In this document: positions 43,142 through 55,463 of the stretch, one piece after another | Layout: each line of letters begins with the position of its first letter | Position numbering within the stretch: the stretch's first letter is position 1 | Origin: Pseudobdellovibrionaceae bacterium | Lineage (GTDB): Bacteria; Bdellovibrionota; Bdellovibrionia; Bdellovibrionales; JAMPXM01 | Assembly (NCBI GenBank): GCA_947462815.1 | Contig: CANHQR010000008.1 | Coordinates: forward strand, 1-64,000 | Direction: 5' to 3' | Length of the DNA: 64,000 nt | Made by a program: the position numbers and the translations under genes | Notes under the pieces: model-generated | What the model was told of the DNA's origin: nothing | Seen by the model: only the letters and a program-made list of their open reading frames with translations | Database searches by the model: none

Positions 43142-44224
43142 ATGGCCAACACCACTCCACGGATCGCATCCGAACTCGATATTTCTGCCTTCCTGGCTAG
43201 CGCCCTCGGCGCTGGCCAGTTTCAACTCCATCCCCTGGCCGGCGATGCATCGGCGCGACGATACTTCCGCGTCGTGGCGCATGATGAATCCTTCGTCTTG
43301 ATGCAGTGGGAGCCTTTCGTCGATGATGGTCGCTACCCCTTCTTGAACGTCCGACAACACTTTGAGCGTCACGGTGTTCAGGTCCCCAGCGTGATCGCTC
43401 TCAAGCCCGAATTCGGCTTGGTGCTGCTCGAGGATTTGGGCGACCTAACCTTGGAGAGGAAGTTCTGGGAAAGTCAGAGTACTTCACATTCTCTCATTTA
43501 CTACGAAGCTACCATCGACGAGCTTCTGAAAATTCACTATGACTGCACGCTCGATCGCGGGAATTGCGTCGCCTTCGGAGTCGAGTTCGACGTGGCCAAG
43601 CTGCTCTGGGAGATGAATTACGGCCGCCAGCATCTGCTGCACGGGCTCGCTCATCTAACCCTGTCCGAACAGGAGGAGAGCTGTCTCTCGGAGAATTTCC
43701 AGAAAATCTGCGAGCGCATTGCCGCTGAGCCAAAATTTATTGCCCATCGAGATTACCACTCTCGCAACGTCATGATTAAACTGGGCAAAGTTCGGGTGAT
43801 CGATTTTCAAGATGCGCGCCTCGGCGCCATTCAATATGATCTCGTTAGCCTGTTGCGCGACTCCTACGTCAATCTCGACGAAGAAACTGCACGACGCCTG
43901 ATCGATCGCTACATCGATGGCCGAGATCAAAAAGCGAGATCTTACGATGGGCGTTTACTTGACCTTTCGTTGGAAAAATTCGATTTGATCTACGAGGTGC
44001 AAACCGTGCAGCGATGCTTCAAAGCCTGCGGGAGCTTCGCGAGCTTCTATATGCTCCGCAAAGATACTCGCTATCTGAAGTACTTGCCGCAAACCTTGCG
44101 TACAGTTCGCTCAGCTCTACAAAAGCTTCCTGAGTATTCCGGATTCCTTAGTGTGCTGGAAGATCGCGGAGTATTTGACCGAGATTTTGCCAAAGAGATC
44201 GCGCAGTCGCAGGAGACGCCTTGA
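43142..44224 (+). CDS. amgK: Aminoglycoside phosphotransferase-family sugar kinase, AmgK-like
   Basis: 'HPLAGDASARRYFRV', 'FIAHRDYHSRNVMIKLGKVRVIDFQDARLGAIQYDLVSLLRD'; overlaps a MurU-like gene. Confidence 0.85.
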   Translation: MANTTPRIASELDISAFLASALGAGQFQLHPLAGDASARRYFRVVAHDESFVLMQWEPFVDDGRYPFLNVRQHFERHGVQVPSVIALKPEFGLVLLEDLGDLTLERKFWESQSTSHSLIYYEATIDELLKIHYDCTLDRGNCVAFGVEFDVAKLLWEMNYGRQHLLHGLAHLTLSEQEESCLSENFQKICERIAAEPKFIAHRDYHSRNVMIKLGKVRVIDFQDARLGAIQYDLVSLLRDSYVNLDEETARRLIDRYIDGRDQKARSYDGRLLDLSLEKFDLIYEVQTVQRCFKACGSFASFYMLRKDTRYLKYLPQTLRTVRSALQKLPEYSGFLSVLEDRGVFDRDFAKEIAQSQETP

Positions 44225-45240
44225 CTGCGTTTCTGTTGGCCGCAGGCCTTGGGACCCGATTGCGACCACTGACCTTGCATTGGCCAAAACCAGCGATTCC
44301 CTTTCTCAACGTTCCACTCATCGAATGGAGCTGGGCTTTACTGCAGCAGCAGAATCCAGAGCGACTCATTGTCAATCGGCACTACCTGCCCGAGGGATTG
44401 AATCCCTGCCTCGCACGACTGGGCCAGGATGTTGAAGTCCACGTCAGCGACGAAGTCGCCGCTCCTCTGGGAAGCGGTGGTGCAATTTGGAATGCCCAAC
44501 ATCTCATCGATGCCGATCAGACTCTGCTCATCGCGAATGCGGACGAGGTGATTTTGCCTCTGCGGAGCGGGGCGCTGGATCGGCTCATTCAGCGCCATGA
44601 AGCCAGCGACGCTTTGGCCACTTTACTGGTGATGCGACACCCTCTTGCCGGCACACACTTCGGCGGCGTTTGGGTCGAGCCGGGAAGCTTCGCGATTGAA
44701 GGATTTGGACGACAAAAGCTCGAGGGTTGCGAGCCTTGGCACTACGTAGGCGTGATCGCCGTGAACTCGCACATCTTTAACTATCTCCCCGACGGGGAGA
44801 GCAATTTACTCTACGACGCCGTGATGCGTGGACTGCATGCTGATGAACATGCGCTCATTCACCCCGAAGCTTTGTTCTGGAGAGAAACCGGTGATCCCGA
44901 ATCCTTTCTCAACGCGAGCATCGACACACTCGATCTCATTTGTGCATCGGAAAATTCAGAGGCTCACACGACAGACGCCTGTGCATGGGGCCGAGAAGTA
45001 CTTCGTCGACACAGTCAGAGCTATCTTTGGCAGTTCGGCGAAAGTCGATGCCTGATCCACGAAAGCGTCGGGGATGTCGTGAGACCGCAGATTCTCACGG
45101 CCATCGACTCAGGAAGGAGTCTCGGCCTGCAGGTGATTGGTGCGCACGTCAAATACGACGAGCCCGTTCGCGATCTGATCGCGTTACCGGGCTCGCATGT
45201 GACGAACCTCACTTCGCCGAGATCGATTACGGTTCCTTGA
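44221..45240 (+). CDS. murU: Nucleotidyltransferase, MurU-like
   Basis: 'AFLLAAGLGTRLRPLTLHWPKPAIPFLNVPLIEW'; TTG start overlaps the TGA of the kinase gene. Confidence 0.8.
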   Translation: MTAFLLAAGLGTRLRPLTLHWPKPAIPFLNVPLIEWSWALLQQQNPERLIVNRHYLPEGLNPCLARLGQDVEVHVSDEVAAPLGSGGAIWNAQHLIDADQTLLIANADEVILPLRSGALDRLIQRHEASDALATLLVMRHPLAGTHFGGVWVEPGSFAIEGFGRQKLEGCEPWHYVGVIAVNSHIFNYLPDGESNLLYDAVMRGLHADEHALIHPEALFWRETGDPESFLNASIDTLDLICASENSEAHTTDACAWGREVLRRHSQSYLWQFGESRCLIHESVGDVVRPQILTAIDSGRSLGLQVIGAHVKYDEPVRDLIALPGSHVTNLTSPRSITVP

Positions 45241-46207
45241 TGAAGTTGTTTTGCGCATCTCGATCGCGATAACGTCGCGTCACCATTTCCCAGATGTTGT
45301 CAGCCGCGACACCAATTTGGTCTTCACCGACCCGCTTCGAGAGACCGCTGAGCTTATTCTTGCTGTCGGCTCCGCCGCCTTTGCCAAGTCTGTTTCCGCC
45401 GCCAGCGAACATGCTGGAGTAGTCCACTGCACCCGAAGCGCCGCCGGCTACTCCCGCGCCGCCGCTGGTCTCACCCATTTGGCCAATCTTGCTCCCAAAT
45501 TGGTCGTTAAGCTTCTTGCCGATGGCGGCAGATCCCCCAAGGGCATTCTTAATATCTTCCTCTCCATACCCGAGCGCAGCCAAACCCTCCGCGCTGAATG
45601 AATCGGGACCAAACGCCTTTCCATCTGGAGTTATGATTTTGCCATTCTCGAACTTCACACCTGCACCCTGGAGTTGACTGCGGATTTTGTTGAACTCGTC
45701 GCGGACTTTTTGCGATTGATCGGGGGTCAAACCGGGAATCACAGTGTTCGTTCCATTTGTGCCATCCGTTCCGTTTGTACCGCCTGGAGTTAGAGTTCCT
45801 CCGCCGTTGTTTGTGTTCGGAATCGTCCAATCCCAAGCCGCCATATTGGCGCCGGCATTATTGGATCTGCCCGAAGATCCGCCCATATTCGCAGCGGCGG
45901 CTGCCGACATCGCGGCAAAGGCATAGTGAATGCAAGCGGAGGGCGGCTTAGGGCAAGGGTTAGCGAACTTCAGATTCATTCCCGCCGAGGCTAAATTGGC
46001 GAGCATTCCCGCCATCTGGTTCGATCCTGTGTTGCGACCACTTTCGGAGGCGTTACCACCAGATCCAGGCATCACATAGCCCGCGCCTGGAGTCGGCGTC
46101 GCTACCACAACAGTGTTTGCGGAACTTAGGTCAGAGATGCCTACGGCGATCGAGATGGCGAGACCGAGCGCACATCGCACGTAAGGCGACATTTTCATTG
46201 GAGTCAT
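45227..46207 (-). CDS. Secreted hypothetical protein C with C-terminal IWExxTRRY motif
   Basis: Signal peptide 'MTPMKMSPYVRCALGLAISIAVGISDLSSA'; GGGGGGAAA before ATG 46207; ends 'DNIWEMVTRRYRDRDAQNNFIKEP'. Confidence 0.8.
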   Translation of the reverse strand: MTPMKMSPYVRCALGLAISIAVGISDLSSANTVVVATPTPGAGYVMPGSGGNASESGRNTGSNQMAGMLANLASAGMNLKFANPCPKPPSACIHYAFAAMSAAAAANMGGSSGRSNNAGANMAAWDWTIPNTNNGGGTLTPGGTNGTDGTNGTNTVIPGLTPDQSQKVRDEFNKIRSQLQGAGVKFENGKIITPDGKAFGPDSFSAEGLAALGYGEEDIKNALGGSAAIGKKLNDQFGSKIGQMGETSGGAGVAGGASGAVDYSSMFAGGGNRLGKGGGADSKNKLSGLSKRVGEDQIGVAADNIWEMVTRRYRDRDAQNNFIKEP

Positions 46208-46233
46208 TTTCCCCCCTGACAGCTCACACCTAA

Positions 46234-47655
46234 TCACTTATCCAAGATCACATTCTGCTTTTGGACCTGCTCCTGATACTGTCGCGTTGCCTTTTCCCAG
46301 AGCGATGGTCCCATCGGACCTGTCACTCCATCCTTGGCAGGAACACTCATCCCCGCCAAACCGCGGTTCTTATATTTATCTCCTGGCAAGAAGCGCTTCA
46401 GATTCAATTTGCTGAGGAAACCGTCGTCCCCCGCGTCTCCACCTGTGGCCCGTCCACCGCCTCCACCACCAAATCCCCCGCCTCCACCACCGCTCGGATT
46501 CCCGCCGGAAACTCCCGTGATGGCCGAAGCACCTTCGCGACCACCGGCAGGTCCGCCTCCACCATCACCACCCAGTGAGCTCAGACCACCGCCACCGGGA
46601 GCGCCGCCACCGCCGCTACCTTGAGAGTCACCGCCACCGGCGGCATTGTTTCCACCCAGTGCGCCAAAGGGATTGGCCGCACCTGGGTTGTTCGGATCGT
46701 CGGGCGAGTAGGGAACATTGCCACCATTTCCTCCACCGCCGGGAGGAGCCTGTACGCCGCCCGGAACGACTCCGGGACTTCCTCCGCCGCACATCTGCTT
46801 CTCCGCGTTTTCAGGACGCGCACAAAAACACGTGAGCGACTGATTGTTGGGATCCGAACAGTCACTCGGTGTGGGGAAGCTAAAGGGCGTCGGACTTGTC
46901 GACGCGGCAGCCGTCTGATTCGCACAGTTCTGGTTCTGCATCATATTGGCGCCATGTCGCAGAGCTGAGTTCATGTTCATCACGCCGTTCATAGTGTAGT
47001 CTCGGCATTTGCGACGCGCCCTCTCGGCCCTACGCTTCCTTTCGGGATCCGCCGCCAGAGTCTCAATCTCTTCGTCACAGGTCGACTTACAAGCCGATAC
47101 TGCGGCCATACAAGCCGCAGCCTTAGCTGCGTTCAACAATCCCATCAGTTTAGAAAGGTCAGCTTGGTTTTGACATTGAGCCTGCATGTTTTGACCCTGA
47201 CTCTGCATCTGGCCCGCCATGCCGATCGCCTGATTGAGCATCATCTCAAACATCATGCCTTCTTGGGGACTCATACCCGCAGCGCCCAAGGTATTGCAGG
47301 CCAGTTGTGCCGTTTCGTGTTCCGCTTCGCAGCGCGTTTGCGAGGGCGAAGCGCCCGGAGCCGGAGCAGCGCCAGCTGGGGGAGCCGAAGCGGCACCCAC
47401 CATGGCTTCGCAATCTGCATTTGGGAAAGCGGCCTGACACGAACCCATTCGCACTTCACGAGACATACTAGGATCGCGAGCATATCGCGACAAATCTTCG
47501 CGGGTAACCTCACCCCTCTGCAAATCTTGCGACAGTTGTTGGCGATACCAATCCGCAGAGTTCGCCAAGGCTTTCGTGGAGAAAAGCATAACTACACAAA
47601 ACATCACGGCAGGATCGAACTTGGATCTAATATACCCGAACCTAAGGAAGTGCAT
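46234..47655 (-). CDS. Secreted Cys/Gly-rich protein A, paralog of 47820..49106
   Basis: 'ACNTLGAAGM..QEGMMFEMMLNQA..GQNMQAQCQNQADLSKLMGLLNAAKAAAC' and C-terminus 'GPSLWEKATRQYQEQVQKQNVILDK' nearly identical to the paralog; GGGGGT SD-like before ATG. Confidence 0.85.
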   Translation of the reverse strand: MHFLRFGYIRSKFDPAVMFCVVMLFSTKALANSADWYRQQLSQDLQRGEVTREDLSRYARDPSMSREVRMGSCQAAFPNADCEAMVGAASAPPAGAAPAPGASPSQTRCEAEHETAQLACNTLGAAGMSPQEGMMFEMMLNQAIGMAGQMQSQGQNMQAQCQNQADLSKLMGLLNAAKAAACMAAVSACKSTCDEEIETLAADPERKRRAERARRKCRDYTMNGVMNMNSALRHGANMMQNQNCANQTAAASTSPTPFSFPTPSDCSDPNNQSLTCFCARPENAEKQMCGGGSPGVVPGGVQAPPGGGGNGGNVPYSPDDPNNPGAANPFGALGGNNAAGGGDSQGSGGGGAPGGGGLSSLGGDGGGGPAGGREGASAITGVSGGNPSGGGGGGFGGGGGGRATGGDAGDDGFLSKLNLKRFLPGDKYKNRGLAGMSVPAKDGVTGPMGPSLWEKATRQYQEQVQKQNVILDK

Positions 47656-47782
47656 GAGGACCCCCAGAGTTCTTGTCGGAGGTCGACGCGAGCCACTTTA
47701 GGACATAAGTCGAGATTCTCTGGAGAATACGAGGGCTTGGCGAAATTTCCGCGTCGATCTTTTCGACGTCAAAAGATTCGGC

Positions 47783-47797
47783 GTCTCAAAGCGACAC
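47783..47797. promoter_or_regulatory. Degenerate dyad GTCTCAAAGCGACAC
   Basis: Matches GTCTCAnnnYGAnAC; in the gap upstream of gene A. Confidence 0.4.
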
Positions 47798-47819
47798 AGC
47801 CGCCCTGAACATCACGAGA

Positions 47820-49106
47820 TTATCGATCCGTGATGACATTCTGTTTCTGAATTTGCTCTTGATACTGGCGGGTGGCTTTTTCCCAAAGCGACGGACCCAT
47901 GGGACCTGTGATCCCGTCTTTTGCCGTGCCATTCATTCCCGCGAGTCCACGATTCCTATACTTATCGCCAGGTAACAGCTTTTTGAGATTTAACTTCGAC
48001 AAGAAGCCACCATCATCACCGCGACCACCACCACCACCACCACTGCCTCCGCCACCGGCGTGTCCTCCAGCGCCCGAGGTATTACCGCTAGAAACGCCAC
48101 CAATTGCACTACCGCGATCTCCATTCGAGCCGAAGGAACCCGTACTCTCTCCACCCAAACCACTCAATCCACCACCACCTGGCGCGCCACCACCACCGCT
48201 CCCTTGACTATCACCTCCACCGGCTCCGCTCTTGCCGTTCAAGCCTTCGAGCGGATTTGCCGCACCGGGATTCGTCGGATCGACAGGACTGTAAGGAACG
48301 TTTCCACCATTGCTTCCGCCAGGCGGCGACTGCACGCCGCCCCCGGGTGTCACACCAGGGTTACCGCCACCGCACATTGCTTTCGTGGAGTTTTCGGGCC
48401 GCGCACAAAAACAAGTGAGCGACTGATTGTTCGGATCTGTGCAATCACTCGGTGTCGGAAACCTGAAGGGAGTCGGGCTTGTGCTCGTCGCAGCTGTCGC
48501 ATTCGCACAATTCTGATTTTGCATCATGTTGGCTGCGTGCTGAAGTGCTGAAGCCATGTTCGCCACTGTATTGATGCGGTAAGAAGCGCATCGTTCCGCC
48601 GTAGTTCGAATCTGCGAATTACGAATACCATCGAGGCGTGTAGCTTCTGTCGTCGCCGCATTAGCTCGAGCCGTTTCGGCCGCGGCGAGGTTGGCCGTCG
48701 CATCGGCTTCGCACGAAGACTTGCACTTCATGATGGCCGCCGTACAGGCCGCGGCCTTTGCCGCATTTAATAGCCCCATCAGCTTCGATAGATCCGCCTG
48801 GTTTTGACACTGCTTGTTCATATTTTGGCCGGAATTCGCCATTTGACCCGCAAGCTGTACGGCTTGGTTCAGCATCATTTCGAACATCGCGCCCTGAGCG
48901 GCGTCCATTCCAGCAGCACCCAAAGTGTTGCAGGCCATCTGTGCCGTTTGCGCGGCCGCTTTACACGCGTTGCCCTCTTTATCGCCGCCACCACCGCCCT
49001 CTGCGAGGGCCAACTCCAACGAACTCAAGCAGGCGCAGGCAAGAACCAGGCGAAATCCGATCGAGAGCAGTTTGAATTGAAGGTCAAGTCCTGAAACGGA
49101 CGGCAT
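47820..49106 (-). CDS. Secreted Cys/Gly-rich protein B, paralog of 46234..47655
   Basis: Start MPSVSGLDLQF with GGTGGGGGA upstream; 'ACNTLGAAGMDAAQGAMFEMMLNQA...QCQNQADLSKLMGLLNAAKAAAC'; ends 'GPSLWEKATRQYQEQIQKQNVITDR'. Confidence 0.85.
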   Translation of the reverse strand: MPSVSGLDLQFKLLSIGFRLVLACACLSSLELALAEGGGGGDKEGNACKAAAQTAQMACNTLGAAGMDAAQGAMFEMMLNQAVQLAGQMANSGQNMNKQCQNQADLSKLMGLLNAAKAAACTAAIMKCKSSCEADATANLAAAETARANAATTEATRLDGIRNSQIRTTAERCASYRINTVANMASALQHAANMMQNQNCANATAATSTSPTPFRFPTPSDCTDPNNQSLTCFCARPENSTKAMCGGGNPGVTPGGGVQSPPGGSNGGNVPYSPVDPTNPGAANPLEGLNGKSGAGGGDSQGSGGGGAPGGGGLSGLGGESTGSFGSNGDRGSAIGGVSSGNTSGAGGHAGGGGSGGGGGGRGDDGGFLSKLNLKKLLPGDKYRNRGLAGMNGTAKDGITGPMGPSLWEKATRQYQEQIQKQNVITDR

Positions 49107-49182
49107 CGAGTCCCCCACCTGAAACAGTATCGGCGGAAGCCGTGAAAAGCTCAGAGAGAATTCGCGAACATTGAATCTCCAT

Positions 49183-49197
49183 GTCTCAAGTTGAAAC
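49183..49197. promoter_or_regulatory. Degenerate dyad GTCTCAAGTTGAAAC
   Basis: Matches the motif with one arm mismatch; ~77 bp upstream of gene B start. Confidence 0.4.
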
Positions 49198-49202
49198 AAG
49201 GC

Positions 49203-51440
49203 TCACCATTCACCGAGCTGCGAAGGCGGATTTTTGAGATCGGCTTCGGTGTTATCCGCACCACCCACTTTCCATTTGCCGTTGAGGTGCTCGCGCGAAA
49301 TCAACCGGACGGAGTAACCGCTGCGACCGCCAATAGCGCACTTCCCCGGAATCGGTGAATCCGGAAGGGCCGCCTGGGCGCATTGTCCGAATCTCTCGGT
49401 TGGAAAAGCGAAGTTGGTCGCACGATGTGGGGCCCACATCGTCAAAAGATTTCGCCAATCGCGAATCATCCAGTGAACTTGCGGCTGAAGTTGTTGATCA
49501 ATAGCCGGCGAACCGCCAAAGGCTGCTTCAATTTGCCCCTCCAAATTCACATTGGCAAAACCCGTTCCTACGTGCGACCCCAAATCCCCAGCTGGGACAG
49601 CACCGCTGGGCGCGAGTGTGACTCGACCAGAGTTTTGTCGAAGCGGGTTGATGAAAGTCGTCGTGCCTTGTGGATCGATGGAATAATAAGCGACATCAAA
49701 CAAATTAGGAGCCACCATCGCCATTTCGAGGTTACGCAGTCGCGATAAAACCGCGTTGCTCATCATCGCGGGATTCACATAGTCATAAGCGAGCGCGTCA
49801 CCTGTTTGCGCTACGCTGTAGAAACCCGTGAACCAGTTGTACATCAAACGATTGGCGGGAGGTGGCTGGCCGGAAGTTGAGTTCAACGAAAGGGCTCGCA
49901 GGAATTCGCGCCCTAAGCCCTGAGTCAAGTTCGATTGCATTCCCAGAGTGTCGCCAGGGAATCTCGAAAAATTAGGAATGTAAGTTGAATTCGCTGTGGG
50001 CAAACCGGCTCCGGGAAGTTGGCGAGGTGAGGTCAGGCGATCGGTTCTCGAGGACGGGTCCGCGGATGAAATTGGGTCGCTGGAGCTCCACCGATTGCCG
50101 TACCATGGTCCGATTCGCCCGCCGAAGGGTTGCGCGAAGGCTCTCGCTTCTATTGCAATCGGCTGACCAAATGGCGCAAAGGGCTTTCTCGGATTGGCGC
50201 GAGCCTTCACCCCAATCCAAGCCATGCACCAAGGATTCTTTTCGAAGCCTAAAGATGAATGAAAGGGATCTTGCTGGTTGGGCTCACCGGCCACGACAGC
50301 TCGCAAGACGCCCGTGGGATCTAATTGTTGAACCTGATTTTGTTCTTGAATTTGCCCATGATCGACTTGCGATCTCACGGTGAAGGTACAACCTGACTGA
50401 CCCGAAAGGTCTCCCGTCGTATTGAAAAAATAGAGTGCGGTCGTCGTCAAAATCTCCGGGATGGTTGTTTCGCCGGGACGGGCGCCGCCTGCGCAATCAC
50501 CAAGTGATAAGCCGTTGATAAAGTCGACGCTCGGCTGCGAATTGCGGCTCGCCTCTGTGAGATTCTTCAAAACAGTCTTTCGTACACCATCGCGAATCGG
50601 CTGATTGTCTCGATCGCGCGGATCGCCATTCACTAAGTTTGCTCGCAAACTCCAAATGGTTTGCTTTCGAGTCGAGGCCGAGAATTTATACATGCCAAGA
50701 ATGCTAGCCAAAAAGGACCAGTTGAGCGGCGCCGCACTTCTGCAGCTCGCTCCAAACTGCGCCGAGGCTGCGATCGCATTCGCTTGGATGGCCGCATTGA
50801 GTCCAGCTGTATCCGGTGCGCCCCCTGTCGCGTTGATTGCAACAGGAGGTGCGGTAAAGCCTGACGTGTCTTGCCAACAATAGTTTTCGTTGGGGTCGTT
50901 GGTCCGTCGAGCAAATTCGTACCAAAGAGGATTGGCAATACAAGATACCGGCACGGGACCATCTGCGGTCGCCGAGTGATTCTGCAACACATCTTGAAGC
51001 GCGCCCTGCGAACGCGCCGGTACCTGAGGGTCTGTTCGGCGACGGCCCAAAGTTCCTAACACATGATAGCGAAACGCCAACAATTTGTAGTCTTGCCGAA
51101 TCTGAAAATTGATGTGAGCGATCTCGTTCATCAACTCCGCTTGCTTACCGGCAGCGTAGAAGGCCCCCAGATCAACCGCGTTTTGCAAGTTGATCTTGTC
51201 GTGAACAAACAGGCCCATGTTGATCACCATGGCGAAGAACACGAAGAGAATCTGGAAAATGAGGGCGAGGAAAATTGAAACTTGGCCGAGCTCGCTGCGC
51301 AGAGGCCGACGGCGGCCGGTGCTTCTCCAGACGCCTTCGAACATCTCGCGCCAACTCATGACGTCGCAGGACTCCGCTGATGGAATCAGCTTTGGCTCGC
51401 GTTTCAAATGCGTCGAATTGGACCCCTCATGGATCAACAC
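49203..51440 (-). CDS. TadG-like (TadE/G-type N-terminus) large protein
   Basis: 'RRPLRSELGQVSIFLALIFQILFVFFAMVINMGLFVHDKINLQNAVDLGAFYAAGKQAELMNEIAHINFQ'. Start uncertain (51440 TTG or 51359 ATG). Confidence 0.75.
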   Translation of the reverse strand: MLIHEGSNSTHLKREPKLIPSAESCDVMSWREMFEGVWRSTGRRRPLRSELGQVSIFLALIFQILFVFFAMVINMGLFVHDKINLQNAVDLGAFYAAGKQAELMNEIAHINFQIRQDYKLLAFRYHVLGTLGRRRTDPQVPARSQGALQDVLQNHSATADGPVPVSCIANPLWYEFARRTNDPNENYCWQDTSGFTAPPVAINATGGAPDTAGLNAAIQANAIAASAQFGASCRSAAPLNWSFLASILGMYKFSASTRKQTIWSLRANLVNGDPRDRDNQPIRDGVRKTVLKNLTEASRNSQPSVDFINGLSLGDCAGGARPGETTIPEILTTTALYFFNTTGDLSGQSGCTFTVRSQVDHGQIQEQNQVQQLDPTGVLRAVVAGEPNQQDPFHSSLGFEKNPWCMAWIGVKARANPRKPFAPFGQPIAIEARAFAQPFGGRIGPWYGNRWSSSDPISSADPSSRTDRLTSPRQLPGAGLPTANSTYIPNFSRFPGDTLGMQSNLTQGLGREFLRALSLNSTSGQPPPANRLMYNWFTGFYSVAQTGDALAYDYVNPAMMSNAVLSRLRNLEMAMVAPNLFDVAYYSIDPQGTTTFINPLRQNSGRVTLAPSGAVPAGDLGSHVGTGFANVNLEGQIEAAFGGSPAIDQQLQPQVHWMIRDWRNLLTMWAPHRATNFAFPTERFGQCAQAALPDSPIPGKCAIGGRSGYSVRLISREHLNGKWKVGGADNTEADLKNPPSQLGEW

Positions 51441-51549
51441 GGCTACCCCACCCTTCGTCTCAAAATCATAGCACGGTTGTCTCGAAATGATCCCATTGCT
51501 AACCTTAACTATCTACATTTGTGACACTCGCCAGACGGAGGCTTCCCAC

Positions 51550-52572
51550 ATGTTCATCCGCGAATCGCATCCTGACTCCAGCCGACGATCTCTTCGCCGA
51601 ATCGCGCGCTTCGCTTCGCAAATCGCGACGGTTGCCTCGCTGATCTGTCTCCTAGTTTTGTTCGATATTGTCGCTGTCGCGACCGCTACTGGCCAAGTCA
51701 ACTCCGCTGCGAAATCCAACTTCCTCTACGAGGGCTGGTCAAAAGTCCTGATGCAAGGTCAGCATGTTGGCTACATCGTTCAGCGCTATGAGTTCGACAG
51801 CAAAAAGAAGCAATACAAGAGCACATCATTTCTCAAAACCGAAGCCGACGGTCACAAATTCACCGAAAGCCTGATTTCGATTGCCGATGCTGCGCTGAAA
51901 CCCGTTTCCTATCAATACACCAGCATCGTAGGACCCAAGACGATCACCATCGACGCGTCTTTCACGTCGAGCGGAGCGAGTGGCAAGCCTCAGACGATGA
52001 CGGCAGTCGTCAATGAGAATGGCAAGAAGACCACGGTTCGAAACACGCTGCCCAAAGGCGCCTTTCTTTCAAGCTTCCTCGGCTACGTTATGCTGATGGG
52101 CGAACAAGGCATCAAGAAAGGCGTGAAGTACGCCTACGAGGCGGTCGCCGAAGAGGATGCGGGAATTTACAAAGGCGAAGCCTTCATCGCGTCTGAAGAA
52201 AGTGTGGAAGGCATCGCGACCTTCAAAGTCTTGAACACTTTTAAAGGTGCACGCTTCGTGAGTTTGATCACACACAAGGCAGAGGTTCTCGGAACTGAAT
52301 CGCCCGCACAAGGCATCTCAACAGCCTTGGTGGGTAACATGTCCGAGGCCATCGGCTCTCACTCTCTGAACACGGCGACCTTGAACTCCTTGTTCGGCTC
52401 CGTACCCAAAGGTGAAAGCCTCAGCCTGATTCGCATGGCCTCCGGGAGCAAGGCCGTGACGCCTACAGCAAGTGCCCCACCTACTTCTGGAACTTCCACC
52501 AACTCAAAATCCGAAACACCTCAGATCGCGCCGGCTCCTCGCCCTTCTGCGAACTCCACCAAGAGCCCCTGA
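51550..52572 (+). CDS. Secreted hypothetical protein
   Basis: Start MFIRESHPDSSRR; signal 'IATVASLICLLVLFDIVAVATA'; stop overlaps the next ATG (TGATG). Confidence 0.75.
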   Translation: MFIRESHPDSSRRSLRRIARFASQIATVASLICLLVLFDIVAVATATGQVNSAAKSNFLYEGWSKVLMQGQHVGYIVQRYEFDSKKKQYKSTSFLKTEADGHKFTESLISIADAALKPVSYQYTSIVGPKTITIDASFTSSGASGKPQTMTAVVNENGKKTTVRNTLPKGAFLSSFLGYVMLMGEQGIKKGVKYAYEAVAEEDAGIYKGEAFIASEESVEGIATFKVLNTFKGARFVSLITHKAEVLGTESPAQGISTALVGNMSEAIGSHSLNTATLNSLFGSVPKGESLSLIRMASGSKAVTPTASAPPTSGTSTNSKSETPQIAPAPRPSANSTKSP

Positions 52573-53492
52573 TGATCATCTATACGCTTCGCCGACTTCT
52601 GTCCGCTTTGCCGGTACTCTTAGGAGTCTCCGCACTCAGCTTTAGTTTGCTGGCTTTCGTTCCTGGCGATCCCGTCGACATCATGCTGGGTGATCAAGCG
52701 GCGACGGCGGACAAGGATGCTTTACGACGCGAGCTCGGCTTGGATCGACCCTTCACCGAACGACTCGCGGGCTTTTACTCCGGTCTCGCTCGACTCGATC
52801 TGGGAAGATCTCTGCAGTCGCGACGTCCGGTGAGCGAAGAAATTCTCGAGCGCGTTCCCGCGACCATCGAACTCACGATGGGCGCCATGTTCCTTGCCCT
52901 GAGTATCGGCATTCCCTTTGGTGTATTGGCCGCGGTTCGCCGCAACACTTGGGTCGAAAAGTTAGCGCTCGGATACGGACTTGTTGGGATGTCGACGCCG
53001 GGGTTCTGGTTGGGACCCATGTTGATATTGGGTTTCGCGATCCAGCTGGATTGGTTGCCCGTAAGTGAACGCGGCGGACTCGAACATCTCGTACTACCCA
53101 GTCTGACTTTGGCGCTTGGGCTTTCCGCCATTCTCACACAAGTCACACGGGCTTCGATGATTGAAGTCGTGCGCGAAGATTACGTGAACGTCGCTCGCGC
53201 CAAAGGCCTGCGACCTTTCAAGATTTGGTTTAAGCACGCGCTGGCCAACGCGATGATGCCGATCATCACGATCATAGGTCTGCAGTTTGGCGCCTTGCTG
53301 ACGGGAACGGTCATCGTCGAGACCATCTTCGACTGGCCGGGCGTGGGAACCTTGTTGTTCCAGGCCATTCAGCAACGCAACTATCCTCTCGTCCAAGGTT
53401 GCGTATTGTTGATTGCGACCACCTACGTCGTCGTCAATTTGATCACGGATCTCGCCTACGCCGCCGCTAACCCCAAAGTGAGGCTGGGATGA
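52572..53492 (+). CDS. dppB: DppB-family ABC transporter permease
   Basis: 'MIIYTLRRLLSALPVLLGVSALSFSLLAFVPGDPVDIMLGDQA' and 'VVREDYVNVARAKGL'. Confidence 0.93.
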   Translation: MIIYTLRRLLSALPVLLGVSALSFSLLAFVPGDPVDIMLGDQAATADKDALRRELGLDRPFTERLAGFYSGLARLDLGRSLQSRRPVSEEILERVPATIELTMGAMFLALSIGIPFGVLAAVRRNTWVEKLALGYGLVGMSTPGFWLGPMLILGFAIQLDWLPVSERGGLEHLVLPSLTLALGLSAILTQVTRASMIEVVREDYVNVARAKGLRPFKIWFKHALANAMMPIITIIGLQFGALLTGTVIVETIFDWPGVGTLLFQAIQQRNYPLVQGCVLLIATTYVVVNLITDLAYAAANPKVRLG

Positions 53493-54301
53493 AGAAGCTT
53501 AAGCCAAAGTTTTATTTAGGCTGCTTGCTGATTGCCCTCACGACCTTTTTGGCAGTGTTTGCACCGCAGATTGCGCAACAAGATCCGACGGCCATGGATC
53601 TTTCCAAGCGTCATGAAGCTCCTTCCAGCGAAAACTGGATGGGTCGCGACCAAAACGGCGCAGATGTTTTTGCCCAAGTCGCACACGGTGCTCGCGTCAG
53701 TTTGCGGGTGGCCTTCACCGTCGTGCTCTTGAGTGCGGCGATCGGTCTGCTCATCGGCAGCGTGGCCGGCTACATGGGCGGCTGGACGGATAACCTCATC
53801 ATGCGTTTTCTCGACATGTTCTATGCGTTTCCCGGTTTTCTTTTGGCGCTTTCGCTGGTGGCGGTACTCGGTCCCTCGATCGGCAACCTCATCTTCGCTA
53901 TGTGCATCACCGGCTGGACGGGCTACGCTCGACTGGTCCGCGGCGAAGTTCTGCATCTTAAGAATCGAGAGTATGTCACGGGCGCGTTCGCGGCGGGAGC
54001 AGGTCCACTGCGAATTCTCACTCGCCATATTTGGCCGAACCTACTCGGGATTCTCGTCGTTCAGATGACTTTCGGCATGTCGGGAACCATCATCACCGAG
54101 TCCGGACTCTCCTTCCTGGGTCTCGGAGCGCCGCCAACTGTACCGACCTGGGGACAATTGCTGAACTCTGGACGACGTATTCTCGTCGAGGCTCCACATG
54201 TGAGTTTGTTCCCGGGCCTCGCGATCCTTGTGCTTGTATTGGGATTCAATCTTGTCGGCGACGGCCTGCGAGACTGGCTCAACCCCCGCTCCGCCAATTG
54301 A
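53489..54301 (+). CDS. dppC: DppC-family ABC transporter permease
   Basis: 'WMGRDQNGADVFAQVAHGARVSL', 'REYVTGAFAAGAGPLRILTRHIWPN'; overlaps dppB (ATGA). Confidence 0.93.
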   Translation: MKKLKPKFYLGCLLIALTTFLAVFAPQIAQQDPTAMDLSKRHEAPSSENWMGRDQNGADVFAQVAHGARVSLRVAFTVVLLSAAIGLLIGSVAGYMGGWTDNLIMRFLDMFYAFPGFLLALSLVAVLGPSIGNLIFAMCITGWTGYARLVRGEVLHLKNREYVTGAFAAGAGPLRILTRHIWPNLLGILVVQMTFGMSGTIITESGLSFLGLGAPPTVPTWGQLLNSGRRILVEAPHVSLFPGLAILVLVLGFNLVGDGLRDWLNPRSAN

Positions 54302-54323
54302 AAAGCTACGACTGAGGTGATGC

Positions 54324-55463
54324 GTGAGAGAAAAAATCGGCCAGTGTATGATCATCGGTATCAACGGCAGCTCGTTGACCGCCGAAGAGACGGACTTCAT
54401 CGCGCGCGAAAATATTGGCGGTGTTATCCTGATGAAGCGCAACTTCAGCACCCCGGAAGAACTCCACGAACTGACACGCGAGATCCAGAGTATCCATCGC
54501 CGCCAAGCCGATCGAGCGCCTCTCTTTATTGGTGTGGACCAAGAGGGGGGACGCGTCGCTCGTTTTCGTTCGCCTTTCACCGAGTGGCCGCCGCTCGCGG
54601 CACTTGGCAAACTGCAATCTCCCACACTGGCCTTTAATGCGAGCTATCGCTTGGGTCTGGAACTTGTCGCGTTTGGAGTGAATCTGGATTTTGCTCCCTG
54701 CTTGGATATTCTCACCAATCCAGCCAATACCGTCATCGGCGATCGGGCGCTGAGTTCGGATATGGAAACCGTTAGCAAATTGGGGAGCGCCTGCGTGCGC
54801 GGATTTATGAAGTCCGGGGTTGTGCCCGTCGGCAAGCACTTCCCTGGCCATGGCAATACCTTGCTCGATAGCCACGAGGACTTACCTGTCGAGACTCGCG
54901 TCTGGGCGGATCTCGAAGCGCGAGAGCTGGAGCCTTTCAAACGCGCGATCAAAGCGCGGCTACCCATGATTCTCTCCGCTCATGTGAAATTCACTGATGT
55001 CGATGCGGAACTCCCCGCCTCACTGTCGTCAAAATGGCTCAAGGATATTCTCCGCGGTAAACTTCGCTGGCGCGGAGTAACCGTCAGCGACGATCTCGAC
55101 ATGAAGGCTCTTACGAAGCATTTCACCAAAGCTGAGATCGCCGAAAGGGCTTTTGCTGCGGGCAACGACATACTCTTGTATTGCAATGAACCAGACTCGC
55201 ATCAGATCGCTCTCGATGCTGTGGAAAAAGCTGTGCGCGACAAGCGAATCCCGCTGGCCGATTTGATGGCCGCGCATCAGCGCATCCTTGAGCTTAAGCG
55301 CGATCATGAGATCGTGGCCTCCCCAAAGTCCCTCGCCGAGGCGACCGAGCTCATGGGGCACGAGCTTCACCAGAGGCTCTCGCAAGCCATCCGCGCAGGC
55401 CAAGTCCCCGCCGACTTGCTGGAGGCCGCTGGCCCGCCGAAGTCAGAACCACCGTCGGCTTGA
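54324..55463 (+). CDS. nagZ: Glycoside hydrolase family 3 beta-N-acetylglucosaminidase (NagZ-like)
   Basis: 'GVDQEGGRVARFRSPFTEWPPL', 'VGKHFPGHGNTLLDSHEDLP', 'VTVSDDLDMKAL'; GTG start. Confidence 0.93.
   Translation: MREKIGQCMIIGINGSSLTAEETDFIARENIGGVILMKRNFSTPEELHELTREIQSIHRRQADRAPLFIGVDQEGGRVARFRSPFTEWPPLAALGKLQSPTLAFNASYRLGLELVAFGVNLDFAPCLDILTNPANTVIGDRALSSDMETVSKLGSACVRGFMKSGVVPVGKHFPGHGNTLLDSHEDLPVETRVWADLEARELEPFKRAIKARLPMILSAHVKFTDVDAELPASLSSKWLKDILRGKLRWRGVTVSDDLDMKALTKHFTKAEIAERAFAAGNDILLYCNEPDSHQIALDAVEKAVRDKRIPLADLMAAHQRILELKRDHEIVASPKSLAEATELMGHELHQRLSQAIRAGQVPADLLEAAGPPKSEPPSA

Follow-up and report, generated by a model that had tools for sequence, protein, structure and literature searches.

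A cluster of four genes lies on the minus strand of contig CANHQR010000008.1 from a Pseudobdellovibrionaceae bacterium (GCA_947462815.1), within the 64,000-nucleotide stretch (positions 1-64,000, hereafter the window) that we analyzed. It encodes a large membrane protein resembling the minor pilins of Tad pili, here called G, followed by three secreted proteins, B, A and C. Four consecutive minus-strand open reading frames had been reported in the initial annotation, and we recovered all of them at these places. The genes, a C-terminal module shared by A, B and C, and a candidate promoter are located as follows.

49203-51440, minus strand: G, large TadG/TadE-type (PF13400) minor-pilin-like membrane protein; the start is uncertain, either GTG 51440 or internal
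47820-49106, minus strand: B, secreted A-type paralog with a Cys-rich helical domain, Gly-rich linker and C-terminal module
46234-47655, minus strand: A, secreted protein with a Cys-rich helical domain, disordered Gly-rich linker and C-terminal helix; counterpart by position of HD100 Bd0149
45227-46207, minus strand: C, small secreted protein, preferred start ATG 46207, shared module at its end; counterpart by position of HD100 Bd0150
45230-45361, minus strand: shared C-terminal module in C (IGVAADNIWEMVTRRY...)
46237-46368, minus strand: shared C-terminal module in A (GLAGM...GVTGPMGPSLWEKATRQY...)
47823-47954, minus strand: shared C-terminal module in B
47673-47700, minus strand: weak FliA-like promoter upstream of A (TAAA-N16-TCCGACAA)

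The TadE/TadG-like N-terminus that had been proposed for G is borne out by a Pfam match to the Tad family PF13400 over residues 52-97 (26 bits against a cut-off of 22.3). As had also been described, A and B are paralogs (69% identical over 375 amino acids) that have a Cys-rich block, a Gly-rich linker and their C-terminus in common, and 49106 is indeed the best start of B. The reported overlap of C with A is probably not real, because C best starts at ATG 46207 and the relative UBA2339 has a gap of 27 base pairs at this point; a ribosome-binding-like GGGGGGAA lies directly upstream of this ATG. C, too, ends in the module found at the C-termini of A and B, which had been overlooked. All three proteins have signal-peptide-like N-termini and Gly-rich bodies, and none of them matched an entry in Pfam or NCBIfam.

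The closest relative that we found is the Bdellovibrionaceae metagenome-assembled genome UBA2339 (L133), whose G is 79% identical and whose gene order, G-B-A-C, is that of the window. Across the four genes, amino-acid-changing differences between the two genomes are far rarer per site (pN 0.09-0.19) than silent ones (pS 0.75-0.81); the four genes are thus all genuine and conserved, and purifying selection on them is strong. The A/B duplication is older than the split from UBA2339. On a broader scale, G was present in 137 of the 145 class genomes and, when searched with a profile, in 343 of the 374 phylum genomes, and the A-/C-type tail profile had matches in 129 of the class genomes. Recurrence, which had been named as support for a system, was seen: an A- or C-type tail gene lies within 8 kb of G in 62 of 81 genomes (those with both listed), and in 59 of these 62 it is downstream of G on the same strand. 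For 17 of the 81 genomes the tail gene is on a contig other than that of G, some of these assemblies being fragmented. In Bdellovibrionia, G is recurrently followed by A-type genes, C-type genes or both, whereas outside the class G lacked A/C neighbors in nine of ten loci examined, the exception (L127) having distant A- and C-like genes.

Several Bdellovibrio genomes have additional A/C cassettes, or arrays of A-type genes, that are not accompanied by G. At L111, L112, L113, L115, L121 and L122, between two and four A-type paralogs with a variant tail, for example GPDGITGPHSNIWKKIQNRY, form an array away from G. Outside the class (L123-L126, L128, L129, L131, L132), G often adjoins a Lys/Ala-rich protein and a protein beginning MEIRDPVHGSI, which looks HD-domain-like by eye.

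Because single-sequence tail searches between the A- and C-type families were too weak on their own, we compared profiles of 25 A-type and 31 C-type proteins with hhalign. The two profiles align only over their last 40 residues (hhalign probability 93.5, E 2.3e-7), so that the bodies of A/B and C are unrelated and a C-terminal module of ~40 residues is what they have in common; the tail of G gave no such match to either profile. Helical moments of six tails were 0.4-0.7. The AlphaFold model of A, which is weak (predicted local distance difference test score, pLDDT, of 62), consists of a helical Cys-rich head, a disordered Gly-rich stretch and a short terminal helix, and the conserved cysteines are kept throughout the A-type family. 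A fold search of the PDB with this low-scoring model returned no match at E <= 0.001. By sequence, neither A nor C had a credible PDB relative, the sole A match below 0.001 lying in the Gly-rich linker.

A short common C-terminus on otherwise unrelated secreted proteins recalls the C-terminal sorting tags LPXTG, PEP-CTERM and the type IX C-terminal domain (CTD). Different from these, the module has few carriers per genome and no hydrophobic anchor segment, and no linked sortase, exosortase or type IX secretion system was seen. A genome-wide sorting tag was rejected, as the tail model has just three matches in the source genome, namely A, B and C, and for the same reason the data speak in favor of a docking module confined to a few proteins, with docking as its presumed role. 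We consider it unlikely that the module is instead a secretion or sorting signal for an unknown exporter, which would place A, B and C on the surface or release them, the linkage to G being operon history only. Such a signal would fit the sharing of the C-terminus alone, the signal-peptide-like N-termini with Gly-rich bodies, and the arrays of module-bearing paralogs that are not next to G (L111, L112, L115), but known tags serve many substrates, compared to the very few carriers per genome seen here (three in the source genome), and no gene for a processing enzyme or exporter is linked to the cassette.

Turning to G, the match to PF13400 was seen in 36 of 36 orthologs, and each of 20 genomes checked encodes exactly one PF13400 protein above the cut-off, which is always G. 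The orthologs have an invariant Gly-Gln at the predicted prepilin site, ahead of a hydrophobic helix; in several of them a basic leader of 6-14 residues before the Gly-Gln is possible, the shortest in the G of the window being 20. The AlphaFold model of G (pLDDT 81.8, predicted template-modelling score, pTM, 0.84) contains two long helices, the N-terminal one being 79 residues long, together with small helices and a beta scaffold. A PDB fold search with this model gave no match at E <= 0.001 and sequence searches found no credible PDB relative, leaving the C-terminal domain of G without known relative in either type of search.

The initial annotation had noted that the window contains no TadA ATPase, and indeed no T2SSE or T2SSF gene was detected on its contig, where no search aimed at secretins or major pilins was made. 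It had also proposed looking for tad genes elsewhere in the genome, and these exist: contig C1 (L003, 1132-3435) encodes a 767-residue fusion of a ParA/CpaE(TadZ)-like domain with a T2SSE (TadA-like) ATPase, followed by TadB, and contig C2 carries a TadC-like T2SSF gene. Tad genes are thus absent from the window because the machinery is encoded elsewhere, and, given that TadB was found in 363 of 374 phylum genomes, this absence is uninformative. As the genome has Tad machinery and no PF13400 protein above the cut-off other than G, G is most simply a TadG-type minor pilin of the genome's own Tad pilus.

Compared to known minor pilins, G resembles TadG/CpaL of Aggregatibacter and Caulobacter in having a PF13400 pilin-like N-terminal helix on a large protein, in being single-copy and in occurring with Tad machinery in the same genome. 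It differs in that no von Willebrand A domain of the CpaL type was matched by Pfam in any of the 36 orthologs, in being encoded far from the Tad operon (the usual, not an essential, site), and in having A, B and C as partners instead of TadE/TadF. A second comparison is offered by Myxococcus xanthus, where KilN proteins are minor pilins in the Tip complexes of the Tad-like Kil pilus, with KilN4 as tip protein, and where a Tip-like complex is predicted for Bdellovibrio bacteriovorus too (PMC12075869). In its published description KilN resembles the predicted G: a large minor pilin of a predator lineage, with two long helices, a beta scaffold, small helices and no PDB relative (PMC12075869). KilL and KilM, by contrast, were not found beside G, and its secreted partners are not pilin-like: A, B, C and the divergently transcribed neighbor D, listed below, showed no Pfam pilin domain, no KilL/KilM (TadE/TadF) neighbors of G were found, and the sole other weak TadE match in the source genome is on a different contig.

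Regarding expression, a FliA-like site was found upstream of 12 of 25 A-type genes as compared to ~3% in shuffles, an illustrative figure, the score having been chosen after viewing these sequences and the rows being related. Such sites precede 2 of 31 C-type and 1 of 36 G genes, neither above chance. To relate the cassette to described genes we turned to genome G004, which we take to be the B. bacteriovorus HD100 chromosome. Interpolation from the published HD100 coordinates of Bd0054 (near 48.2 kb) and Bd0108 (near 97.05 kb; PMC11323537) places Bd0149 near 134 kb, where the A-type open reading frame of G004 lies (134263-135723); the G- and C-type frames of that genome are at 131949-134168 and 135732-136742. 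Codon 256 of this frame is GGT, as required by the reported Bd0149 G256V change, and the HD100 A-type gene carries a FliA-like site, in line with the FliA motif and robust attack-phase activity reported for Pbd0149 (PMC12622784). From position, G256V site and promoter motif we infer that the HD100 A- and C-type genes are Bd0149 and Bd0150. The hit locus (Bd0108-Bd0109) was considered as the site of the cassette and rejected, TadB lying at 99 kb in HD100 and the cassette at 132-137 kb.

The assignment matters because the Bd0150::Tn mutant is class I, defective in attachment, killing and rounding of prey, like mutants in the TadC gene Bd0470 and in PilT (PMC6561027). The C-type gene is the last on its strand in HD100, so that polarity of this insertion is unlikely. 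If the mapping holds, C is Bd0150, whose insertion mutant fails to attach to prey. Since the B. bacteriovorus counterpart gene is required for attachment in a mutant screen, it is probable that the cluster belongs to the machinery with which prey is seized. The structure had been called undescribed in the initial annotation; this stands for the family, the tail module and the link to a TadG-type protein, none of which we found described in the literature on Bd0149-Bd0150, listed as hypothetical proteins, yet the Bdellovibrio counterpart is not wholly undescribed, the Bd0150 attachment phenotype being published (PMC6561027). Literature on Bd0144-Bd0148, Bd0151 and Bd0522-Bd0527 yielded nothing on Bdellovibrio.

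Taking these data together, we favor, with the balance about even, a reading in which the Tad-type minor pilin G and its attack-phase secreted partners A, B and C form a prey-attachment complex, the locus presumably corresponding to Bd0148-Bd0150. The locus would then be part of the attack-phase prey-attachment apparatus. Export and insertion of G would be like those of a prepilin, by way of the Gly-Gln site and the first hydrophobic helix. Its role would be that of the TadG/KilN-type minor pilin in the Tad (Kil-like) pilus of this genome, with a probable place at the tip. The Sec pathway would export A, B and C, whose shared module of ~40 residues could form a short amphipathic helix that docks all three on one partner, for which G or a G-containing tip is the likeliest candidate. 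The disulphide-rich head of A and B would be displayed toward the prey on a long flexible Gly-rich tether, with a putative role in contact. A bolder version of this proposal, which we put forward tentatively and as clearly less probable, is a phylum-specific Tad tip or surface complex in which tethered, non-pilin, disulphide-rich proteins docked on a TadG-type subunit make the first contact with prey, the A-type heads having been duplicated and diversified between species and the C-terminal module being of a new kind.

The main doubt concerns whether the complex rides on the Tad pilus, as a physical link of A, B and C to it is our inference, and a number of points weigh against the favored reading. 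Deletion of the Flp pilins abolished predation, not attachment (PMC5430801); as flp mutants still attach, the failure of Bd0150::Tn to attach may have a cause other than the Tad pilus, and the screen was done in a host-independent 109J strain (PMC6561027). The Bd numbers come from interpolation, one codon and a promoter motif rather than from an annotated record. TadE/TadF-type partners are not encoded beside G, and the likeness of G to KilN4 is one of closely similar wording in a published description (PMC12075869). Both G and Tad are near-universal in the phylum, so their co-occurrence discriminates little; G is phylum-wide while A and C are not, and G therefore also works without them. Scattering of A, B and C homologs without the TadG-like gene, which the initial annotation had named as evidence against a system, was seen in part: some genomes (L111, L114, L118) hold A/C-type genes away from G, and nine of ten out-of-class loci have G without A/C neighbors, with linkage still in place in 62 of 81 genomes.

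The same observations bear on the possibility, which we rate as rather improbable though the strongest of the competing explanations, that G, A/B and C form a separate envelope or adhesion complex with a borrowed TadG-type anchor, off the Tad pilus, which is the view of the initial annotation extended by a role in prey attachment. The attachment defect of Bd0150::Tn contrasts with the flp mutants, and the C-terminal domain of G has no known relative. The genes around the locus are for peptidoglycan recycling (GH3 NagZ-like, APH, NTP-transferase), not those of a Tad operon, and its conserved divergent partner D is not a known pilus gene. Conversely, G is the sole PF13400 protein in genomes with Tad machinery, and TadG has been found in pilus fiber preparations (stated in PMC12607857). 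Thus, of the separate structure with a TadG-like anchor first suggested for this locus, the recurrent system stands (62 of 81 genomes), while its independence from Tad is weakened by the machinery encoded elsewhere and by the single PF13400 protein.

How Bdellovibrio takes hold of its prey calls for explanation, as flp pilin mutants lose predation yet attach. The favored reading connects Bd0150, an attachment gene so far without explanation, with a conserved cassette that contains the only TadG-type minor pilin of the lineage, and the shared C-terminal module of A, B and C is a feature that can be tested. It would thereby become directly testable which components bacterial predators carry on their Tad pilus or next to it.

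The neighborhood of the cassette suggests one further explanation, to which we assign very little weight: A, B and C could be structural periplasmic or peptidoglycan-linked proteins of a cell-wall-recycling gene neighborhood, the defect of Bd0150::Tn being an indirect envelope effect. Neighbors of NagZ-like, APH (AmgK-like) and nucleotidyltransferase (MurU-like) type are consistent with this, and the separated A/C pair of L118 is also near such genes by eye; however, no peptidoglycan-binding domain was found in A, B or C, and an attack-phase FliA-type promoter before A better suits motility or attachment genes.

Upstream of G, a further gene is transcribed in the opposite direction.

51487-52572, plus strand: D, secreted protein, transcribed divergently from G; probable companion of G

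D has no Pfam match; it is divergent from G in all 21 class loci examined. By Pfam, the cell-wall-recycling-like genes that flank the cassette (window 43142-45240 and 52572-55463) encode an APH kinase (AmgK-like), an NTP transferase (MurU-like) and a GH3 protein (NagZ-like), and two oligopeptide-type permeases are also among these neighbors. An AnmK-like gene, assigned by eye, lies near the cassette in some relatives.

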